Positions 21,668 through 52,589 of a stretch of 64,000 bases of DNA are shown here, piece after piece. The stretch lies in the NCBI GenBank assembly GCA_947499145.1, contig CANMNB010000013.1:1-64000 (forward strand), given 5' to 3'. Position 1 is the stretch's first letter, and each line of letters opens with the position of its first letter. A program made the translations under genes and the position numbers. The DNA is from an uncultured Arachnia sp. GTDB lineage: Bacteria; Actinomycetota; Actinomycetes; Propionibacteriales; Propionibacteriaceae. The notes beneath the pieces are model-generated. The model saw nothing but the letters and a program-made list of their open reading frames with translations, had not been told where the DNA came from and did not search any database.

Positions 21668-22483
21668 TCAATTAGCCTTCGTGTTCAACCACGCCATCCT
21701 GGCCTTGGCGAGGCAGAAGAACCCGTAGAGGATGAGACCGATGGCGATGGCGAACAGCAGCGGCTGCCCGTAGGGCAGCTCGACGAGCGACTTGAGCGCG
21801 CCGTCGAGCCCACCGGTGTCCGAGGCGTCGCGCGTGAAGACCGCCACCACGAAGAGGATCCCGACAACGGCGACCGCCACACCTTTCGCGATGTACCCGC
21901 TGACTCCCAACCAGGTGAAGATCGTGCGGAACTTCGGAGGCATCCTGACATCCTCGAGGAACTTCTTGGTCGCGCCGCGGTAGATCATGGCGACGCCGAT
22001 GGCCAGGATGACCAGGCCCGCCAGCACCAGCAGGGCCGAGCCCCACCACGACTGGAGCAGCTGGGAGCTGAGTGACTCCGTGGTCTCCTCACCGTCCGAG
22101 GTCCCCCCGGTGGCATAGGTGAGTGCGCCCGCACCGACGACGGCGTACATGAGCGCTCGTCCAGCGTTCTTGGCGGCATCGCTCTTGTCGTGTCGCGACT
22201 CCCCGATCGCCAGGACCACCGAGTAGATCGCGAGGCCGAGGAGCGCGAAACCGACGAACCACAGCGCGATGTTCCCGAGTGGGTGCGCGTCGATCGCCCG
22301 CATGGCGCCCGACTGGTCCGCCGATCCTCCGCCACCCTCCGCGATCCCGATGGCGATGGCCCCGATGATCGCGTGCACGATGCCGTTCACCACGTGCCCC
22401 ACCGCGGCCACCCCGGCCGCCGCGGGGTGCTCCTCGACAAACTTGGCCCCGTCGCGAACCTCACCCACAACCTCGTCCGTCAT
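21668..22483 (-). CDS. DUF1206 membrane protein
   Basis: 271 residues with six predicted helices arranged as three repeats of a helix pair; each pair carries the Gly-rich pattern seen in DUF1206 (AAVGHVVNGIVHAIIGAIAI, NAGRALMYAVVGAGAL, GVSGYIAKGVAVAVVGILFV). Inner membrane; function unknown. Divergent from the aldo/keto reductase gene. Confidence 0.86.
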   Translation of the reverse strand: MTDEVVGEVRDGAKFVEEHPAAAGVAAVGHVVNGIVHAIIGAIAIGIAEGGGGSADQSGAMRAIDAHPLGNIALWFVGFALLGLAIYSVVLAIGESRHDKSDAAKNAGRALMYAVVGAGALTYATGGTSDGEETTESLSSQLLQSWWGSALLVLAGLVILAIGVAMIYRGATKKFLEDVRMPPKFRTIFTWLGVSGYIAKGVAVAVVGILFVVAVFTRDASDTGGLDGALKSLVELPYGQPLLFAIAIGLILYGFFCLAKARMAWLNTKAN

Positions 22484-22587
22484 GGCGACATCGTAAGGCG
22501 CGAGAGCCGCCCGCGTGCTCGCTGCCGTCAGCGGACCTGTCCGCCCTCTAGAGTGTCCGTGCCCCTCGACACCTGCCTGGAGGAACG

Positions 22588-23466
22588 ATGGCCACCGTGC
22601 CCACCACCCCCGTCACGCTCGGCGCCTCGCGGTTGGGCGAGCGCCCCGACGGCGAGGCTCTGGCCGACGCCCTGCTCGACTCCCGGTTGGGTCACGTGGA
22701 CACCAGCAACAACTACGCCGGTGGGCGCAGCGAAGCGCTCCTGGGAGACGCCATTCGGCGGGCCGGCGGCCTGCCGGAGGGGAAGCTGGTCTATTCCAAG
22801 GCCGATCGGGACATGACCACCGGCGCCTTCGACGGCGACCGCGTCCGGCGTTCGCTCGAGGAGTCACTGCAACGGTTGGGACTCGACCACCTTCCGATCT
22901 ACCAGTTCCACGACCCGTTCACGATCTCCTGCGACGAGGCGATGGCCGACGGCGGTCCCGTCGAGGCGTTGCTCGAGTTCCGCGACCAGGGCGTCATCGG
23001 GGCGATCGGCATCACGCTGGGACCGGTGTCCCAGGTTGCCGAGTACGTCGAGACCGGTGTCTTCGACGTCGCTCTCAGCCACAACCGCTACACGCTCGTG
23101 GACCGGCAGGCCGAGCCGCTCTATGCCCGGGCGAAGCAGCTCGGCATGCAGGTGTTCAACGCCGCACCCTTCGGCGGCGGAACGCTGGCCAACGGCCAGG
23201 AGTCCTACGGTTACCGGGAGATGCCGGCAGCGTTTGCTGCCCACCTAAGCCGGGTGCGGGATCTGGCCCGGGACATGGACGTCGACCTCGCGGCCGCGGC
23301 CCTGCAGTTCTCGATGCGGAGCCCGCTCGTCGACACCACCGTCGTGGGCATCCCGTCGCTTGAGCGACTGCGCGCACTCGAGGACCTGATGGCCCCCGGG
23401 GTGCCGGCCGAGTTCTTCGCAGCGGTCGAGGACTTGGGCGCACCTCCCAGCAGCGGTCAGGACTGA
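22588..23466 (+). CDS. Aldo/keto reductase
   Basis: 292 residues. TIM barrel with the catalytic tetrad visible: Asp in HVDTSNNY, Tyr in the same motif, Lys in LVYSKADRD, His in IYQFHDPF. Closest in look to the D-threo-aldose/L-fucose dehydrogenase branch (ALLGDAIRRAGG, GIPSLERLRALEDLM). ATG 22588 follows GGAGGAACG; a -10 TAGAGT lies at 22551-22556. Confidence 0.9.
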   Translation: MATVPTTPVTLGASRLGERPDGEALADALLDSRLGHVDTSNNYAGGRSEALLGDAIRRAGGLPEGKLVYSKADRDMTTGAFDGDRVRRSLEESLQRLGLDHLPIYQFHDPFTISCDEAMADGGPVEALLEFRDQGVIGAIGITLGPVSQVAEYVETGVFDVALSHNRYTLVDRQAEPLYARAKQLGMQVFNAAPFGGGTLANGQESYGYREMPAAFAAHLSRVRDLARDMDVDLAAAALQFSMRSPLVDTTVVGIPSLERLRALEDLMAPGVPAEFFAAVEDLGAPPSSGQD

Positions 23467-23490
23467 TTGAGACCAATTCCGCCCCACCCA

Positions 23491-23520
23491 TTGACATAAC
23501 CGGCGGCAGGTCTCTAGTGT
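23491..23520 (+). promoter_or_regulatory. Consensus promoter of the leader peptide/ABC exporter operon
   Basis: TTGACA (23491-23496) and TAGTGT (23515-23520), 18 bp apart, form the best -35/-10 pair I saw in the window. Transcription would start near 23527, giving a ~185-nt 5' UTR before the exporter gene. Confidence 0.7.
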
Positions 23521-23537
23521 TTGCCTGTCGTCGACCT

Positions 23538-23712
23538 TGGAGGAGGTGTCCGCAGATGTTGATCAACCACTCTGCCGCCCCTGGTCGGCCGCGCGCGTTC
23601 GTCCGCTGACCAGCACCGCGCCCGGGCCCTGTCGCCCATCCTGACGCCCCATCGCGTCCCCACTCCCACGTTTGCCTGCGTTTTCCGACGCTGTCCGTCA
23701 GGACCTCCTCCA
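23538..23712 (+). promoter_or_regulatory. Candidate ribosome-controlled attenuator in the exporter 5' UTR
   Basis: TGGAGGAGGT (23538-23547), containing the leader ribosome site, is exactly complementary to ACCTCCTCCA (23703-23712), which touches the exporter ATG. Next to it CCTGACG (23640-23646) pairs with CGTCAGG (23696-23702). Together the arms could fold the whole UTR and hide both start sites. The exporter gene has no Shine-Dalgarno of its own, only this anti-SD-like sequence, so its translation must depend on the leader region. Confidence 0.55.
23556..23609 (+). CDS. 17-residue leader peptide upstream of the ABC exporter
   Basis: ATG 23556 to TGA 23607-23609, encoding MLINHSAAPGRPRAFVR. 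It has the strongest ribosome site nearby (GGAGGAGG, 23539-23546, 9 bases before the ATG) and lies ~30 nt after the predicted start of transcription. Residues 11-13, Arg-Pro-Arg, fit the +X+ pattern at which macrolides arrest ribosomes (as in ErmDL). The frame is the same as the exporter's, with only this TGA between. Interpreted as a regulatory uORF; no direct proof. Confidence 0.6.
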   Translation: MLINHSAAPGRPRAFVR

Positions 23713-25568
23713 TGCATGCACCTGCCCGCGGGCGTTTCGACTTCCCGCCCGCGATCCCCCACGACTCACGCCCCGACGTGCGCTCTCCCAGCCGGTTCCT
23801 GTTCTGGCTGATCCGCTCCTACGGGTGGGTCGTCCCCGCGATGACCCTGGCCGCCTCTTCGTGGCTCGTCCCGGCCGCCCTCACGCCTTGGCTGCTGGGC
23901 CGCGCCATCGACGCCGGTGTGTCGCGCGCCGACACCTCGGCCGCCCTGGCCTGGGTGGGTCTGCTGCTCGTCGTGATCGCCGTCGGGGTGGTCGGCGGCA
24001 TCTGGTTCCACACCTTCGCCGTGCGAATGTGGCTCCTCGGCATCTACGGGATCCAGCGTCGCGTGTCCCGCCACGCCGTCCACCTCGGCCACGTCCTGAA
24101 CCGCCGCGTCCCGACCGGCGAGGTGCTCAGCGTCTCGTCGTCGGACAGCGACCAGTTCGGCGCGACCATCGAGTCGTTCGGCCACGTCATCGCGGCGGCC
24201 ATGAGCTTTATCCTGGCCTCCGCGCTGATGCTCACGACCTCCCCCCTGTTGGGCGCCGTGGTCCTCATCGCGACTCCCGTGCTGCTCCTGGCGTCGACGC
24301 CGGTGCTGCGCCCGCTGACCCGGGCACAGTCCGCGGAGCGAACCGAGAGCTCCTCGCTCACGTCACTGGCCAGCGACATCGCGACGGGACTGCGGATCCT
24401 CCGCGGCGTCGGCGGCGAGCGGACGTTCGCGCGCAACTACGAGCGCCAGTCGCAGAAGGTCCGTGCGCTCGGCGTCCGGCTGGGCACGTGGCAGGCCGTG
24501 GTCGAGGCCACGAGCATCCTGCTGTCGGGTCTGCTGCTCGTGACGCTGGTCTACCTCGGTTCAATGCGGCTCCTCGAAGACAGCTTGAGCGTTGGCGAGC
24601 TGATCAGCTTCTTCGGGTACGCGGTGTTCCTGACGTCTCCCATGCAGACCTTCTTCGACTTCGCCCAGAAGTGGGTCCAGGGGCTCGTCGCTGCGCAGAA
24701 GACGCTGGCCTTCCTGGGGGCTGAGGTCCCGTGGCGCGAGAGTGACCGGAAGCTCGCGTCGAACGCCGTGCTTCGGGACGACCTGTCGGGCGTGAGTGTC
24801 CATCCCGGGCGCATGCTGGGCGTGGTCTCCGCGGACCCGGACTCGTCGGCGGCCCTGGCGGACCGGCTGGGGCGCTACCTGCCGGAGGGCTCGCCCGAGG
24901 AGGTCGACGACGCTGAGTTGCGTGGCCGCGCCCGCCGCCTCGCCCGTCGCGAGCGCCTGGCCGCCCGCGCCCGACAGGCACGGGAGGATGCCGAGCTGGC
25001 TGCCCGGCCCTGGGGCGTGACGGCCGACGGTGTGGACTACTCGGTCCTCGACATCGCGGACCTGCGACGTCGCGTGGTCGTCTCGCACACCGGAGCCCTG
25101 CTGTTCGCCGGGACTCTGCAGAGCGCCATCGACCCCTGGGGGACGCACAGTCGCCAGGAGGCGGAGCGTGCTCTCGAGGTGGCCTCGGCCGAGGACATCT
25201 ACGCGTCCCTGCCGGGTGGCTGGCAGGGACGAATCGACGAGAAGGGCAGGGGCCTCTCCGGCGGTCAGCGGCAGCGGGTCGTCCTGGCGCGGGCGCTGCT
25301 CCGCGACCCCGAGGTGCTCGTCCTCGTCGAGCCGACGTCCGCTGTCGACGCCCACACCGAGGCACGGATCGCCGAGCGCCTCGCCGCGCATCGCCGGCGA
25401 CGCACCACGGTCGTCATCACCGCGTCGCCGCTGCTGCTGCGGCGCTGCGACGAGATCAGCGTGCTGGTCGACGGACGAGAGGTCGTCCGCGGCACGCACG
25501 ACGACTTGCATGACCATCCTGACTACCGCCGCATCATCGCGCGCGGGATGGAGGACTCCCATGAGTGA
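23712..25568 (+). CDS. ABC exporter half-transporter with degenerate ATPase site (subunit 1)
   Basis: 618 residues. Six-helix exporter domain (~30-320), then an ATPase domain in which Walker A is lost (GVVSADPDSSAALAD, no GKS/T), the Walker B Asp is Val (LVLVEPTSAVD) and the H-loop His is missing (TASPLLL), while the signature LSGGQRQR is perfect. That is the mirror image of the second subunit, so the two form a heterodimer with one working ATP site. Start ATG 23712 has no ribosome site (see attenuator). Overlaps the partner by 8 bp. Probably multidrug export. Confidence 0.9.
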   Translation: MHAPARGRFDFPPAIPHDSRPDVRSPSRFLFWLIRSYGWVVPAMTLAASSWLVPAALTPWLLGRAIDAGVSRADTSAALAWVGLLLVVIAVGVVGGIWFHTFAVRMWLLGIYGIQRRVSRHAVHLGHVLNRRVPTGEVLSVSSSDSDQFGATIESFGHVIAAAMSFILASALMLTTSPLLGAVVLIATPVLLLASTPVLRPLTRAQSAERTESSSLTSLASDIATGLRILRGVGGERTFARNYERQSQKVRALGVRLGTWQAVVEATSILLSGLLLVTLVYLGSMRLLEDSLSVGELISFFGYAVFLTSPMQTFFDFAQKWVQGLVAAQKTLAFLGAEVPWRESDRKLASNAVLRDDLSGVSVHPGRMLGVVSADPDSSAALADRLGRYLPEGSPEEVDDAELRGRARRLARRERLAARARQAREDAELAARPWGVTADGVDYSVLDIADLRRRVVVSHTGALLFAGTLQSAIDPWGTHSRQEAERALEVASAEDIYASLPGGWQGRIDEKGRGLSGGQRQRVVLARALLRDPEVLVLVEPTSAVDAHTEARIAERLAAHRRRRTTVVITASPLLLRRCDEISVLVDGREVVRGTHDDLHDHPDYRRIIARGMEDSHE

Positions 25569-27489
25569 CAACCTGTTGTCCGCCACGTCGGCGTCGACGT
25601 GGCTCGACGACCCGACGCCCACGCGGCTGCCGGAGGGACTCGACGTGCCCCGCGGCGCCGGGATCCGGGAGCGACTGGAGGCGCTGCGTCGCCGCCACGC
25701 GATCCGCACGGAGATCGCCCGGGACGCCTATCTCGAGGCCCGCGCCCCCCGGACCGGCTTCCCGGTGGCCACGTCATCGCAGGCCCTCAGTTTCCTCGGC
25801 GGCCTGCTGTCGGGGCGTCGGGGCCTATTGGTCTGGGCGATCGCCCTCAACCTCAGCGCTGCGGGTGCTGGTCTGGTTGCACCCTTCCTCCTGGGCCGAC
25901 TCGTCGACGACGTGGCCGGCGGACTGTTGGATCGGAACGGGCTCACGACGACGGTGGGCATCATCGCCGGCGTGGTCATTGCTCAGGCCTTGCTGACGTT
26001 CGCTGCCCGGCGGGCCTCCGCCGTGCTCGGCTACGACCTGCTCGCGGCCGCCCGTGAGGAGGTCGTGCGGATCGTGCTGCGGCTCCCGCTGGGGCACGTC
26101 GAGGCCTCCGGGTCCGGCGACCTCCTGACGCGCATCACCTCCGACGTCTCCAAGATGGCGACGGCGGCACGGTGGGCCATCCCCAACCTGATCGTCTCCG
26201 TGGTGCTCATCGGGGCGACGCTCGTGGCGATGCTCGTGAACTCGTGGGTGCTGACGCTGCCCATGCTCGGGACTGCCCTGGTCATGTGGCTGGGAGGGCG
26301 CTACTACCTCTCCCGCGCGACCGCCGGGTACATCACGGAGTCGCGTTCCTACTCGGTCATCAACACCACGACCACCGAGACGGTGGAGGGTGCGCGCACC
26401 GTGGAGGCACTCGGGCTGGAGGATCTGCGGGTCGCCCAGATCGACGAGGACACGGAGCTGTCCGGCCAGGCCGAGCGCTACACGATGACGCTGCGGAACA
26501 TGCTGTTCGCGATGGTGGACTCGTCGTTCCAGTTGCCGCTCGTGGGCGTCGTGCTCCTGGGTGTCTGGGGTCACGGCGAGGGTTGGGCGACGATCGGGCA
26601 GATCACCACCGCAGCCCTGTACATCTCGCAGTTGCAGGGTCCGCTCGATCGCGTCATCGCGGTGCTCGACCACCTCCAGCTCGGCATCGTCGCCACGGCA
26701 CGCCTCATCGGGGTCGCCCAACTCGACGACGACCGGACTCCCCGCGACGTGGAGCCGGATGGTGTCAAGCTCACCGGCAACGGCCTGCGCTTCGGCTACC
26801 GGCCGGACGTGGACGTGCTGCACGGCGTCGACGTCGACCTCCAGCCGGGCGAGCGGCTCGCCATCGTCGGACCGTCGGGTTCTGGGAAGTCGACGCTGGG
26901 CCGCCTCGTGGCGGGCATCAACCGGCCACGGGTCGGCGAGGTGACCGTCGGCGGCGTCGACGTGATGGACCTCCCGCTTGACCGGCTTCGGACCGAGGTG
27001 GCGTTGGTGACCCAGGAGCACCACGTGTTCGTGGGCTCCGTCCGCGACAACGTGGTGCTCGCCCGAGAGACGACGGCTTCCGACGAGGAGGTCGAGCGGG
27101 CGCTGCGGGCCGTCGACGCGTGGACGTGGGTGTCGAAGCTCCCGGGCGGTCTGGATGCCGAACTCGGGCATGGCAAGGCGACACTCACGCCGGCGCAGGC
27201 CCAACAGGTGGCGCTGGCTCGGCTCATCATCGCGGACCCCCACACGCTGGTGCTGGACGAGGCGACGTCGCTCATCGACCCGTCCTCCGCACGGCACCTG
27301 GAGGGCTCCATGGCCACGCTGCTGGACGGCCGCGCTGTCGTCGCCATTGCCCACCGGCTGCACACCGCCCACGACGCCGACCGCATCGCGGTGGTGGACT
27401 CCGGGCGGATCGTGGAGCTCGGCTCGCACCACGAGCTCATTGAGCTGGGCGGGCAGTACGCCGACCTGTGGCGCACCTGGCGCGACTGA
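25561..27489 (+). CDS. ABC exporter half-transporter with intact ATPase (subunit 2)
   Basis: 642 residues. An ~80-residue N-terminal extension, six membrane helices (~90-390), then an ATPase with good Walker A (GPSGSGKST), Walker B (LVLDEATSLID), and H-loop (AHRLHT) but a decayed signature (LTPAQAQQ for LSGGQ). Its Walker A/B pairs with the intact LSGGQ of subunit 1, giving one canonical and one degenerate site, as in TM287/288-type exporters. ATG overlaps the upstream stop (ATGAGTGA). Confidence 0.93.
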   Translation: MSDNLLSATSASTWLDDPTPTRLPEGLDVPRGAGIRERLEALRRRHAIRTEIARDAYLEARAPRTGFPVATSSQALSFLGGLLSGRRGLLVWAIALNLSAAGAGLVAPFLLGRLVDDVAGGLLDRNGLTTTVGIIAGVVIAQALLTFAARRASAVLGYDLLAAAREEVVRIVLRLPLGHVEASGSGDLLTRITSDVSKMATAARWAIPNLIVSVVLIGATLVAMLVNSWVLTLPMLGTALVMWLGGRYYLSRATAGYITESRSYSVINTTTTETVEGARTVEALGLEDLRVAQIDEDTELSGQAERYTMTLRNMLFAMVDSSFQLPLVGVVLLGVWGHGEGWATIGQITTAALYISQLQGPLDRVIAVLDHLQLGIVATARLIGVAQLDDDRTPRDVEPDGVKLTGNGLRFGYRPDVDVLHGVDVDLQPGERLAIVGPSGSGKSTLGRLVAGINRPRVGEVTVGGVDVMDLPLDRLRTEVALVTQEHHVFVGSVRDNVVLARETTASDEEVERALRAVDAWTWVSKLPGGLDAELGHGKATLTPAQAQQVALARLIIADPHTLVLDEATSLIDPSSARHLEGSMATLLDGRAVVAIAHRLHTAHDADRIAVVDSGRIVELGSHHELIELGGQYADLWRTWRD

Positions 27490-27525
27490 GCCCCGCGCAT
27501 TCGCCACTGCGCTAATGACCCAGGT

Positions 27526-27557
27526 GTTCGAATAATGTCGGTGGTGGGTTCTAGGGT
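27526..27557 (+). promoter_or_regulatory. Promoter of DUF222-HNH copy 1 with decayed SOS half-site
   Basis: TAGGGT (27552-27557) lies 7 bases before ATG 27565, indicating a leaderless mRNA. GTTCGA (27526-27531) matches the right half of a LexA box at the position where copy 2 has a near-complete box, but the left half (TGACCC) has diverged. Confidence 0.4.
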
Positions 27558-27564
27558 TGTGGGT

Positions 27565-28914
27565 ATGGATCAGGAGGCGCGCCAGACCGCTGAGCAACTG
27601 CGTTCGGTCGATGAGTTGCGCCGGTTCGCAGAAGCCCAGACGATCACGTTGTTGTGTGACCTGGCCCGCCAGTACCGGATCGAGTATGACGACGTGGTGG
27701 AGGTGCTGGCGGAGCGCCGGGTCCGGCTGGGTGGGGTGGGGACTCCGGCGGTGTCGGAGTTCATCGGCTTGGAGTTGGCGGGGCTGTTGCGGTGTCCGCC
27801 GATGGTGGCGGCCTCGAAGCTGGCTGACGCGCTCAACCTGAAGTACCGGCACCCGCAGTTGTTCGTGGCGGTGCAGGGGCTGCGTGTGGAAGCCGCGAGG
27901 GCCTGTAAGGCGGCCGCTTTGTGTTCTGACCTGCCGGCCGAGGTGGCCGCCCGGGTGACCGAAGAGTGGGTGGGCCGGCAGGAGTCGTTGGGGTGGACGG
28001 CGTCGTTGAACCTGTTGAAGAAGTTGATCATCCAGGCCGACCCGGCCCGGGCCGCGGAACAGGAGCGGCGGCGTCGTGCGGAGCGGGGAGTGTGGGTGTG
28101 GGGGCTGCATGAGGGGGCGATGAACCTCACCGGCTGCCTCGACGTGCTGGATGCCCGTTACCTCGACGCCGCCGTCGACCGGATCGCCGACCTCCTCGCC
28201 CCGGAACACCCCGGATCCTCCCAGTCGGTGTTGCGGTCCAAGGCGTTGGGGGTCCTGGCCAACCCGGCCTACGCGCTCGCGCTGCTGCAACAGGCAGCTC
28301 AGCCGGCACTCACCGACACCGATGCTGTCTCCGCTGTGGCTGCTGGTCCCGATGCGTCGGGGGATCTGCCGCAGCGGCATGACCCGCACTGCCTCGGGGT
28401 GTTGTGCGGCACGATCACCACACCCTTGGCGAAGCTGCGGCCGCGTTTGGAGTTGGCCGTCCACGTCCACGCTGACGCCGTCGGTCGGCTCACCGGCACC
28501 GCCCGCATCGACAAAGCCGGCCACACCACCACCGCACTACTGGCCGAGCTCCTCCCCGACGTCGAAGTCACCGTCCAGCCCGTCATCGACCCCGCCGAGA
28601 TCCCCGCCGAGGACCGCTACGTCCCCACCGTCAGGATGCGCAAGGCACTGGTGCTGGCCCTCAAACACGAACTCTTCCCGTATTCGAACACCCCCTCCGC
28701 CGGGTTGGACATCGACCACACCCAACCCTTCACCCCCGGCCGGCCGGCCCAGACCCGGATCGGGAACCTCGCCCCCGTGACCAGACGGGTCCACCGGGCC
28801 AAGACCGCCCGCGCCTGGCGGGTACGACAACCCAGCCCCGGGAAACTCACCTGGACCAGCCCACTCCGATTCGCCTACGACGTCACCCCCACCGGCACCC
28901 GCATGCTCGCCTAG
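27565..28914 (+). CDS. DUF222 / 13E12-repeat HNH endonuclease-like protein, copy 1
   Basis: 449 residues from ATG 27565; I prefer it to ATG 27535 because both copies share the -10 box 7 bases upstream and MDQEARQTAEQL. N-terminal DUF222 helical region (~1-300), C-terminal HNH-type nuclease motif (LDIDHTQPF ... RIGNLAPVTRRVHRAKT). The family (13E12 repeats of Mycobacterium tuberculosis) is repetitive, poorly understood, and often LexA-controlled. A close paralogue lies at 41025, same orientation, on the other side of the nitrate cluster. Confidence 0.88.
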   Translation: MDQEARQTAEQLRSVDELRRFAEAQTITLLCDLARQYRIEYDDVVEVLAERRVRLGGVGTPAVSEFIGLELAGLLRCPPMVAASKLADALNLKYRHPQLFVAVQGLRVEAARACKAAALCSDLPAEVAARVTEEWVGRQESLGWTASLNLLKKLIIQADPARAAEQERRRRAERGVWVWGLHEGAMNLTGCLDVLDARYLDAAVDRIADLLAPEHPGSSQSVLRSKALGVLANPAYALALLQQAAQPALTDTDAVSAVAAGPDASGDLPQRHDPHCLGVLCGTITTPLAKLRPRLELAVHVHADAVGRLTGTARIDKAGHTTTALLAELLPDVEVTVQPVIDPAEIPAEDRYVPTVRMRKALVLALKHELFPYSNTPSAGLDIDHTQPFTPGRPAQTRIGNLAPVTRRVHRAKTARAWRVRQPSPGKLTWTSPLRFAYDVTPTGTRMLA

Positions 28915-52509: not shown

Positions 52510-52558
52510 GCTCCCCGGGTAGGAGTCGAACCTACTTCGCTAATCCTGATTCAAAGTC
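52510..52558. repeat. Right 49-bp direct repeat within tRNA-Gln
   Basis: Identical to 43184-43232. Lies inside the complete tRNA gene (its 3' half), so this end regenerates a functional tRNA and the left copy is the displaced fragment. Confidence 0.85.
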
Positions 52559-52589
52559 AGGCGGGCCCTGCCGAAAGACCAACCGGGGA
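52511..52589 (-). tRNA. tRNA-Gln (anticodon TTG)
   Basis: Read on the minus strand: acceptor TCCCCGG pairs with CCGGGGA, anticodon arm CCTGA-CTTTGAA-TCAGG gives anticodon TTG, T-arm GTAGG-TTCGACT-CCTAC, G discriminator, CCA encoded at 52508-52510. The D-arm is less regular and the variable region is ~9 nt, a bit long. Gln is by anticodon; identity otherwise not checked. Confidence 0.85.

Follow-up and report, generated by a model that had tools for sequence, protein, structure and literature searches.

A candidate R-x-R arrest-peptide leader upstream of an actinobacterial ABC exporter gene, probably added to an ancestrally leaderless mRNA

Leader peptides with an R/K-X-R/K motif are tied to macrolide- and ketolide-dependent ribosome arrest (PMC6851288, PMC6238534, PMC8298421, PMC6310831, PMC4335068), and only a fraction of such motifs arrest (PMC6851288). 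Erythromycin-dependent pauses have been assigned to the motifs +X(+) and XP(X) (PMC6238534). Among the closest described systems is tlrB (yxjB) of Bacillus subtilis, in which the leader MIIQFIRYR, whose RYR is needed for induction by tylosin, governs attenuation of a macrolide-resistance gene encoding an rRNA methyltransferase; an intrinsic terminator and an SD-sequestering hairpin both take part, the hairpin being proposed to repress the leader as well, and 180 leaders were predicted before tlrB homologues in Gram-positive organisms (PMC6851288). In Firmicutes, the resistance or efflux genes erm(D)/erm(K), mef(E) and msr(A) are preceded by leaders that are 8 to 14 residues long and contain RLR or RLK, mef(E) being equipped with a Rho-independent terminator (PMC4335068). 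In Listeria, a 14-aa ORF with RLR controls the antibiotic-response gene hflXr (rli80) through transcription attenuation by a terminator/anti-terminator (PMC6310831). Two further systems share other properties with the locus described here. In bmrBCD of B. subtilis, the multidrug ABC transporter BmrC/BmrD is under the control of a leader peptide that responds to protein-synthesis drugs, with an intrinsic terminator within the bmrB coding region (PMC4191407). In toiL-topAI of E. coli, a leader ORF senses ribosome-targeting drugs, at least five classes of which stall ribosomes at different positions; the downstream ribosome-binding site is hidden, Rho-dependent termination occurs inside topAI, and the target is a toxin-antitoxin gene (PMC12121999). 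In these reports, the worked examples of R-x-R arrest leaders come from Firmicutes (PMC6851288, PMC4335068, PMC6310831), and translation, intrinsic termination and Rho are all possible players (PMC6851288, PMC12121999).

The locus studied here lies in a 64,000-nt stretch of DNA (the whole of which is called the window) with a G+C content of 69%, whose nearest named relatives are Tessaracoccus (Propionibacteriaceae). A sequence-only reading had described a consensus promoter and a 17-codon leader ORF with a strong Shine-Dalgarno sequence (SD), and both were confirmed (Table 1). A strict promoter scan of positions 22000-28000 yielded zero sites; the pattern TTGA[CG][ACT]-N17/18-TANNNT is present in 17 of the 20 leader-bearing loci scanned, 16 of which have TTGACA. 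The leader SD occurs only once in the whole window, and a purine-rich SD-like site precedes an intact leader ORF in each of the 21 leader-bearing loci, so that the short ORF with its own SD upstream of a gene, typical of arrest leaders, is found throughout, with a single transcript predicted. An Rfam search of 23450-23800 with E up to 1 returned zero matches. From the leader stop to the exporter, 75-103 nt were measured in 17 leaders, and this interval is C-rich (C 0.43-0.52, G 0.19-0.25). In all likelihood the leader is a genuine regulatory element, the likely signal being a ribosome on it. The R-x-R motif, the SD of the exporter and the leaderless relatives had all escaped the sequence-only reading, while the features that it did describe are present in the window.

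Table 1. Features of the leader-exporter locus (positions in the window)
Feature	Position	Strand	Evidence
Promoter	23491..23520	+	-35 TTGACA 23491-23496, 18-nt spacer, -10 TAGTGT 23515-23520
Leader Shine-Dalgarno TGGAGGAGGT	23538..23547	+	GAGGTG columns invariant in 18 aligned leaders
Leader ORF, 17 codons, MLINHSAAPGRPRAFVR then stop	23556..23609	+	intact ORF in 21/21 leader-bearing loci
Hairpin H1: motif codons 23581-23589 with leader end/stop 23605-23613	23581..23613	+	9/9 pairs in window; 77.8% of cells paired, 18 leaders
Putative arrest-motif codons G-R-P-R-A, R-x-R at 23586-23594	23583..23597	+	R-x-R in 21/21
Hairpin H2: GACGC 23643-23647 with GCGTC 23654-23658	23643..23658	+	near invariant in 18 aligned leaders
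Hairpin H3: GCGTT 23678-23682 with GACGC 23687-23691	23678..23691	+	86.7% of cells paired; GCGCC:GGCGC in L062
Small hairpin H4: GTCC 23693-23696 with GGAC 23701-23704, overlapping the exporter SD	23693..23704	+	4/4 pairs in 11/18
Exporter Shine-Dalgarno AGGA, 8 nt ahead of ATG	23700..23703	+	AGGA-type element 5-9 nt before start, 18/18
ACCTCCTCCA, perfect complement of leader SD, in pyrimidine-rich SD-start spacer	23703..23712	+	10/10 pairs in window only
ABC exporter subunit A, 618 aa, nucleotide-binding domain without Walker A	23712..25568	+	Pfam ABC_membrane, ABC_tran; orthologues; motifs
ABC exporter subunit B, 642 aa, ATG overlapping the end of subunit A	25561..27489	+	Pfam ABC_membrane, ABC_tran; motifs

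The leader is followed by a two-subunit ABC exporter operon, an arrangement also seen in bmrBCD, and the two subunits, each of them an ABC exporter half-transporter, are probable heterodimer partners. In subunit A, Walker A is present in none of the 35 rows examined and LSGGQ in 34, the one exception (L062) being an N-terminal piece only. Subunit B retains Walker A in 31 of 33 rows; LSGGQ is found in none, many rows ending before the motif at the locus end, and LTPAQ or LTSAQ was seen in its place in 13 rows (LTPAQ in the window). By these motifs the exporter is strongly asymmetric. No NCBIfam family scored above its cut-off among the matches listed, the nearest named families lying far below theirs, and the nearest solved sequences are P-glycoprotein-like for subunit A and the yeast-type a-factor exporter together with P-glycoproteins for subunit B; judged by sequence, this class fits drug efflux. 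The exporter frame is broken in two leader-bearing genomes, in T. lapidicaptus (L018/L032) by one in-frame TGA and in L062 (genome G193) near residues 395-433, with ATT at the start position; other genomes hold intact copies. Directly downstream of the operon, positions 27535-28914 contain a putative HNH/13E12-like ORF of 459 aa. Elsewhere in the window, a weak tRNA match was observed on the minus strand at 52512-52588, scoring 29.2 against the Rfam gathering score of 29.

The leader peptide carries R-x-R in every one of the 21 loci, so the conserved R/K-x-R/K motif of arrest leaders is present; x is P in 15, L in 4, T in 1 and A in 1, and the preceding residue is G in 19 and R in 2. The second arginine falls at residue 12-14 in 20 of the 21 leaders. 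The codon of the first arginine varies (CGG in 13, CGT in 4, CGA in 4) while the residue stays constant, and among ten leaders of equal length the codons for G and both R show no first- or second-position differences. For the whole peptide in these ten, pN/pS is 0.99, i.e., selection is not detectable. Conserved G and R codons within a drifting peptide form the pattern that a short arrest motif would be expected to leave in a peptide whose other residues are free to vary. For a single leader the motif is not rare by chance, since R.R appears in 32% of shuffled versions of the window leader. The sequence R-P-R is compatible with each of the two pause classes, +X(+) and XP(X) (PMC6238534).

Compared with tlrB, the locus shares a short leader with R-x-R, and the attenuation described there is proposed here; the fold suggested to repress the tlrB leader together with its gene is a precedent for a structure hiding both starts. 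The differences lie in the placement of the motif (C-terminal in tlrB, internal here), in the regulated gene (an rRNA methyltransferase there, an ABC exporter here) and in the terminator, which accompanies the SD-sequestering hairpin in tlrB (PMC6851288). A simple consensus scan of the + strand over 22000-28000 found no terminator-like site, and thus neither the intrinsic terminator of the tlrB and bmrBCD type nor the Rho-independent terminator of mef(E). Relative to the RLR/RLK leaders of Firmicutes (PMC4335068), the leaders described here are mostly RPR and actinobacterial, and the ABC exporter separates the locus from hflXr (PMC6310831) and from topAI (PMC12121999). In the open-licence PMC literature, with preprints outside the search, no actinobacterial exporter leader with R-x-R was found among the matches listed. 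The leader most likely joins the known R-x-R arrest-leader attenuators (tlrB, erm(D/K), mef, hflXr), as a lineage-specific case before an actinobacterial ABC exporter.

At E 1e-60 the exporter was recovered from 96 of the 197 genomes searched in the family, and 19 of the 39 searched in the genus have it as well (own genome counted). One genome scan supplied 23 named loci, one of which, from Paenibacillus, is a distant ABC match only. The leader was identified in 21 distinct loci, comprising 18 of the Tessaracoccus/Arachnia type and three of a Propioniciclava-like sister clade (L046, L019, L020), which stand outside both the alignment of 18 leaders and the model derived from it. When 198 genomes of the family were scanned with a covariance model of the leader, 17 matches reached an E value of 2.4e-6 or better, each of them situated just upstream of the exporter; in the window's own genome the model gave one strong match (E 6.9e-17), the next being at 0.005. 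Five weaker matches that were inspected (L130-L132, L110, L111) lie inside long open frames without a short R-x-R ORF, and no close leader copy away from the exporter was found in the 198 family genomes. The model scores the three sister-clade leaders weakly, at 15-20 bits; therefore, divergent leaders before other genes would escape it. In a 38-row exporter tree, built by a quick method with a midpoint root, a branch with SH-aLRT 100 separates the 21 exporters that have the leader from all others (L028 and L030 are labelled 'none', their upstream regions being unscored). On this tree, one gain of the leader suffices. Tessaracoccus caeni (L025/L061/L073) has a leaderless-type exporter of about 59% identity despite its genus name, a discrepancy that points to lineage sorting or to a transfer of the leader-bearing type.

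Relatives that have the exporter without the leader show a different organization of the start region. The scored rows, when pooled, number 73 (71 distinct); a -10 box lies 6-10 nt ahead of the start codon in 71 of them (69 distinct), and 2 of the 73 have an SD. TANNNT was sought 5-13 nt ahead of the start and was found at 6-10, mostly 9-10. Within Propionibacteriaceae it is present in 52 of 54 rows, as against 0.8% of 3296 control positions, with an SD-like element in 1 of 54; because L025, L061 and L073 are one gene, the 54 rows correspond to 52 distinct ones and the 52 matches to 50. In a second family of the order, TANNNT precedes the start in 19 of 19 scored rows, one of which has an SD-like element. 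These counts were made without L028, L030, L063 and L067, for which the upstream region is missing or the match partial, and repeats of one gene were removed apart from L025, L061 and L073. The start was not found for L099 in the first family and L152 in the second, although by eye L152 has TAGTGT just before ATG. A -10 box at this spacing leaves at most a few nt of 5' UTR; the mRNAs of these relatives are therefore probably leaderless. The simplest history is the gain of approximately 160-190 nt, including the leader and the exporter SD, between the promoter and the start codon. Since the R-x-R leader is found here and the distant relatives seemingly have none, an older gene, itself leaderless, probably acquired the leader as an antibiotic sensor.

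Local secondary structure was assessed over the 18 aligned leaders. Jointly, 86% of cells of the hairpins H1-H4 are paired, a level reached by 10 of 500 shuffles, and their covariation is 0.107 against 0.080 in shuffled alignments, reached by 2 of 500. Pairs changed on both sides are not outstanding (59 of 500 shuffles), and relatedness can inflate such scores. An exchange of partners between the arms of H2 and H3 was rejected by eye, because the changes of H3 in L062 and L021 break the swapped pairs. The RNAalifold consensus pairs the leader SD with exporter codons, which was taken to reflect coding conservation with G-U pairs.

The mechanism put forward in the sequence-only reading was a switch: base pairing between the leader SD and ACCTCCTCC, located ahead of the exporter, would close the mRNA and conceal the two starts until a ribosome on the leader opened it. 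Within the window several observations favour it: the 10-bp complementarity of TGGAGGAGGT and ACCTCCTCCA is perfect, a Watson-Crick run of 10 against the leader SD arises in only 5 of 1000 dinucleotide shuffles of the downstream region, and the predicted fold of 23527-23760 (MFE -89 kcal/mol, z -2.78, with 2 of 200 shuffles as good) contains both this pair and the adjoining 7-bp pair CCTGACG (at 23640)/CGTCAGG (at 23696) that had been proposed to extend it. Folding calculations for the window give a cost of 17.2 kcal/mol for opening the exporter start, which falls to 10.7 kcal/mol once a ribosome occupies the leader start. In relatives, however, the 10-bp pair is complete in the window alone of 18 aligned leaders, the other 17 forming 1-8 of 10 pairs, and the 7-bp pair is complete in only 5 of 18. 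Covariation of the two pairs together is at shuffle level (0.102 vs 0.104 in shuffled columns; 73.1% vs 72.9% of cells paired), and cognate duplexes of leader SD and downstream sequence are no stronger than mixed ones in 17 leaders (p 0.20, 0.26, 0.30), a comparison of limited power because the leader SD hardly varies. Homologues thus keep the exporter and not both arms, which the reading itself had named as evidence against it. The exporter had also been thought to be without an SD; a weak one is present in the window, and its type is kept in all 18 leaders compared (Table 1). The pyrimidine content of the SD-start spacer is 57-100%; what relatives preserve therefore seems to be its composition and not its complementarity. 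Only in the window and L014 does an initiating ribosome make the exporter start easier to open by approximately 6.5 kcal/mol, the next value being 3.0 in L045, and over the 18 leaders the effect is not significant (p 0.44); in these runs an in-frame start 6-9 nt upstream was taken for L014, L011, L017, L015 and L045, which shifts the initiating ribosome and not the stall site. Averaged over the leaders, occlusion of the exporter start does not differ from that obtained with shuffled upstream sequence (10.6 vs 10.0 kcal/mol, p 0.64), so special occlusion was rejected as a general property; occlusion exceeds all 15 shuffled controls in two of the 18, again the window and L014. We consequently rejected SD:anti-SD pairing as a family feature and regard the switch as quite unlikely to explain the leader: a regulatory leader with the ribosome as its signal survives from that proposal, while a lock by arms that neither persist nor covary is not supported as a general design. 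Because start opening and above-shuffle occlusion are confined to the window and L014, such a lock may exist in the window strain, yet it is not a conserved principle.

That the leader is a plain upstream ORF setting basal expression, by translational coupling or mRNA protection and without drug sensing, is unlikely. It would agree with the drift of most of the peptide and with the folding calculations, in which no conserved switch structure was found in the 18 leaders, but it would not account for an R-x-R kept in all loci and in a confined place, and the distance from the leader stop to the exporter is far for coupling. It is very improbable that the inverted repeats GACGC-N-GCGTC of H2 and GCGTC-N-GACGC of H3 are operators of a DNA-binding repressor, with the leader incidental: H2 is nearly invariant, but both lie more than 100 nt after the promoter, H3 keeps its pairing while its sequence changes (L062), and the conservation of R-x-R is left unexplained. 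Readthrough of the single TGA into an N-terminally extended exporter has a negligible chance of being correct. The leader and exporter do share one frame in the window, as had been pointed out, and that frame is open from the TGA to the exporter ATG, but it is incidental and unconserved, the distance from leader stop to ATG being 0, 1 and 2 modulo 3 in 6, 6 and 5 of 17 leaders.

The explanation that we consider probable is that the leader acts as a drug-sensing arrest-peptide attenuator raising expression of the ABC exporter, and that it was gained once by an ancestrally leaderless gene. By analogy with known arrest peptides, a drug-bound ribosome on the 17-codon leader would stall at R-P-R while Pro12 occupies the P site and Arg13 the A site, the inducer most likely being a macrolide, a ketolide or another drug of the peptide exit tunnel. 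Stalling would raise expression of the two-gene, probably heterodimeric exporter, and the step from the stalled ribosome to more exporter could involve translation, Rho-dependent or other transcription termination, or mRNA stability. Folding calculations gave no support to a stalled ribosome at R-x-R freeing the exporter start: alone it changes the opening cost by a mean of +0.7 kcal/mol over 18 leaders, the wrong direction, slightly closing the start (p 0.048), and a stall with a queue is borderline (p 0.06). A more specific form of the arrest-leader reading is put forward only tentatively, as a possibility that we rather doubt: an arrest peptide inserted before an ancestrally leaderless efflux gene would have turned a leaderless into a regulated mRNA and would control the gene without the help of an intrinsic terminator or of a conserved fold that hides the SD, e.g., through ribosome-blocked Rho loading on the C-rich linker. 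That the C-rich interval between leader and exporter would suit Rho is speculation.

The study of this locus is a reminder that a striking complementarity in one genome can mislead unless it is checked in relatives. If the leader is an arrest leader, it hints at the likely substrate class of the exporter. An R-x-R leader near apparently leaderless orthologues offers a case in which the addition of a drug-responsive attenuator to a gene without a 5' leader can be studied and, since leaderless mRNAs are common in actinobacteria, this route of leader gain may recur.
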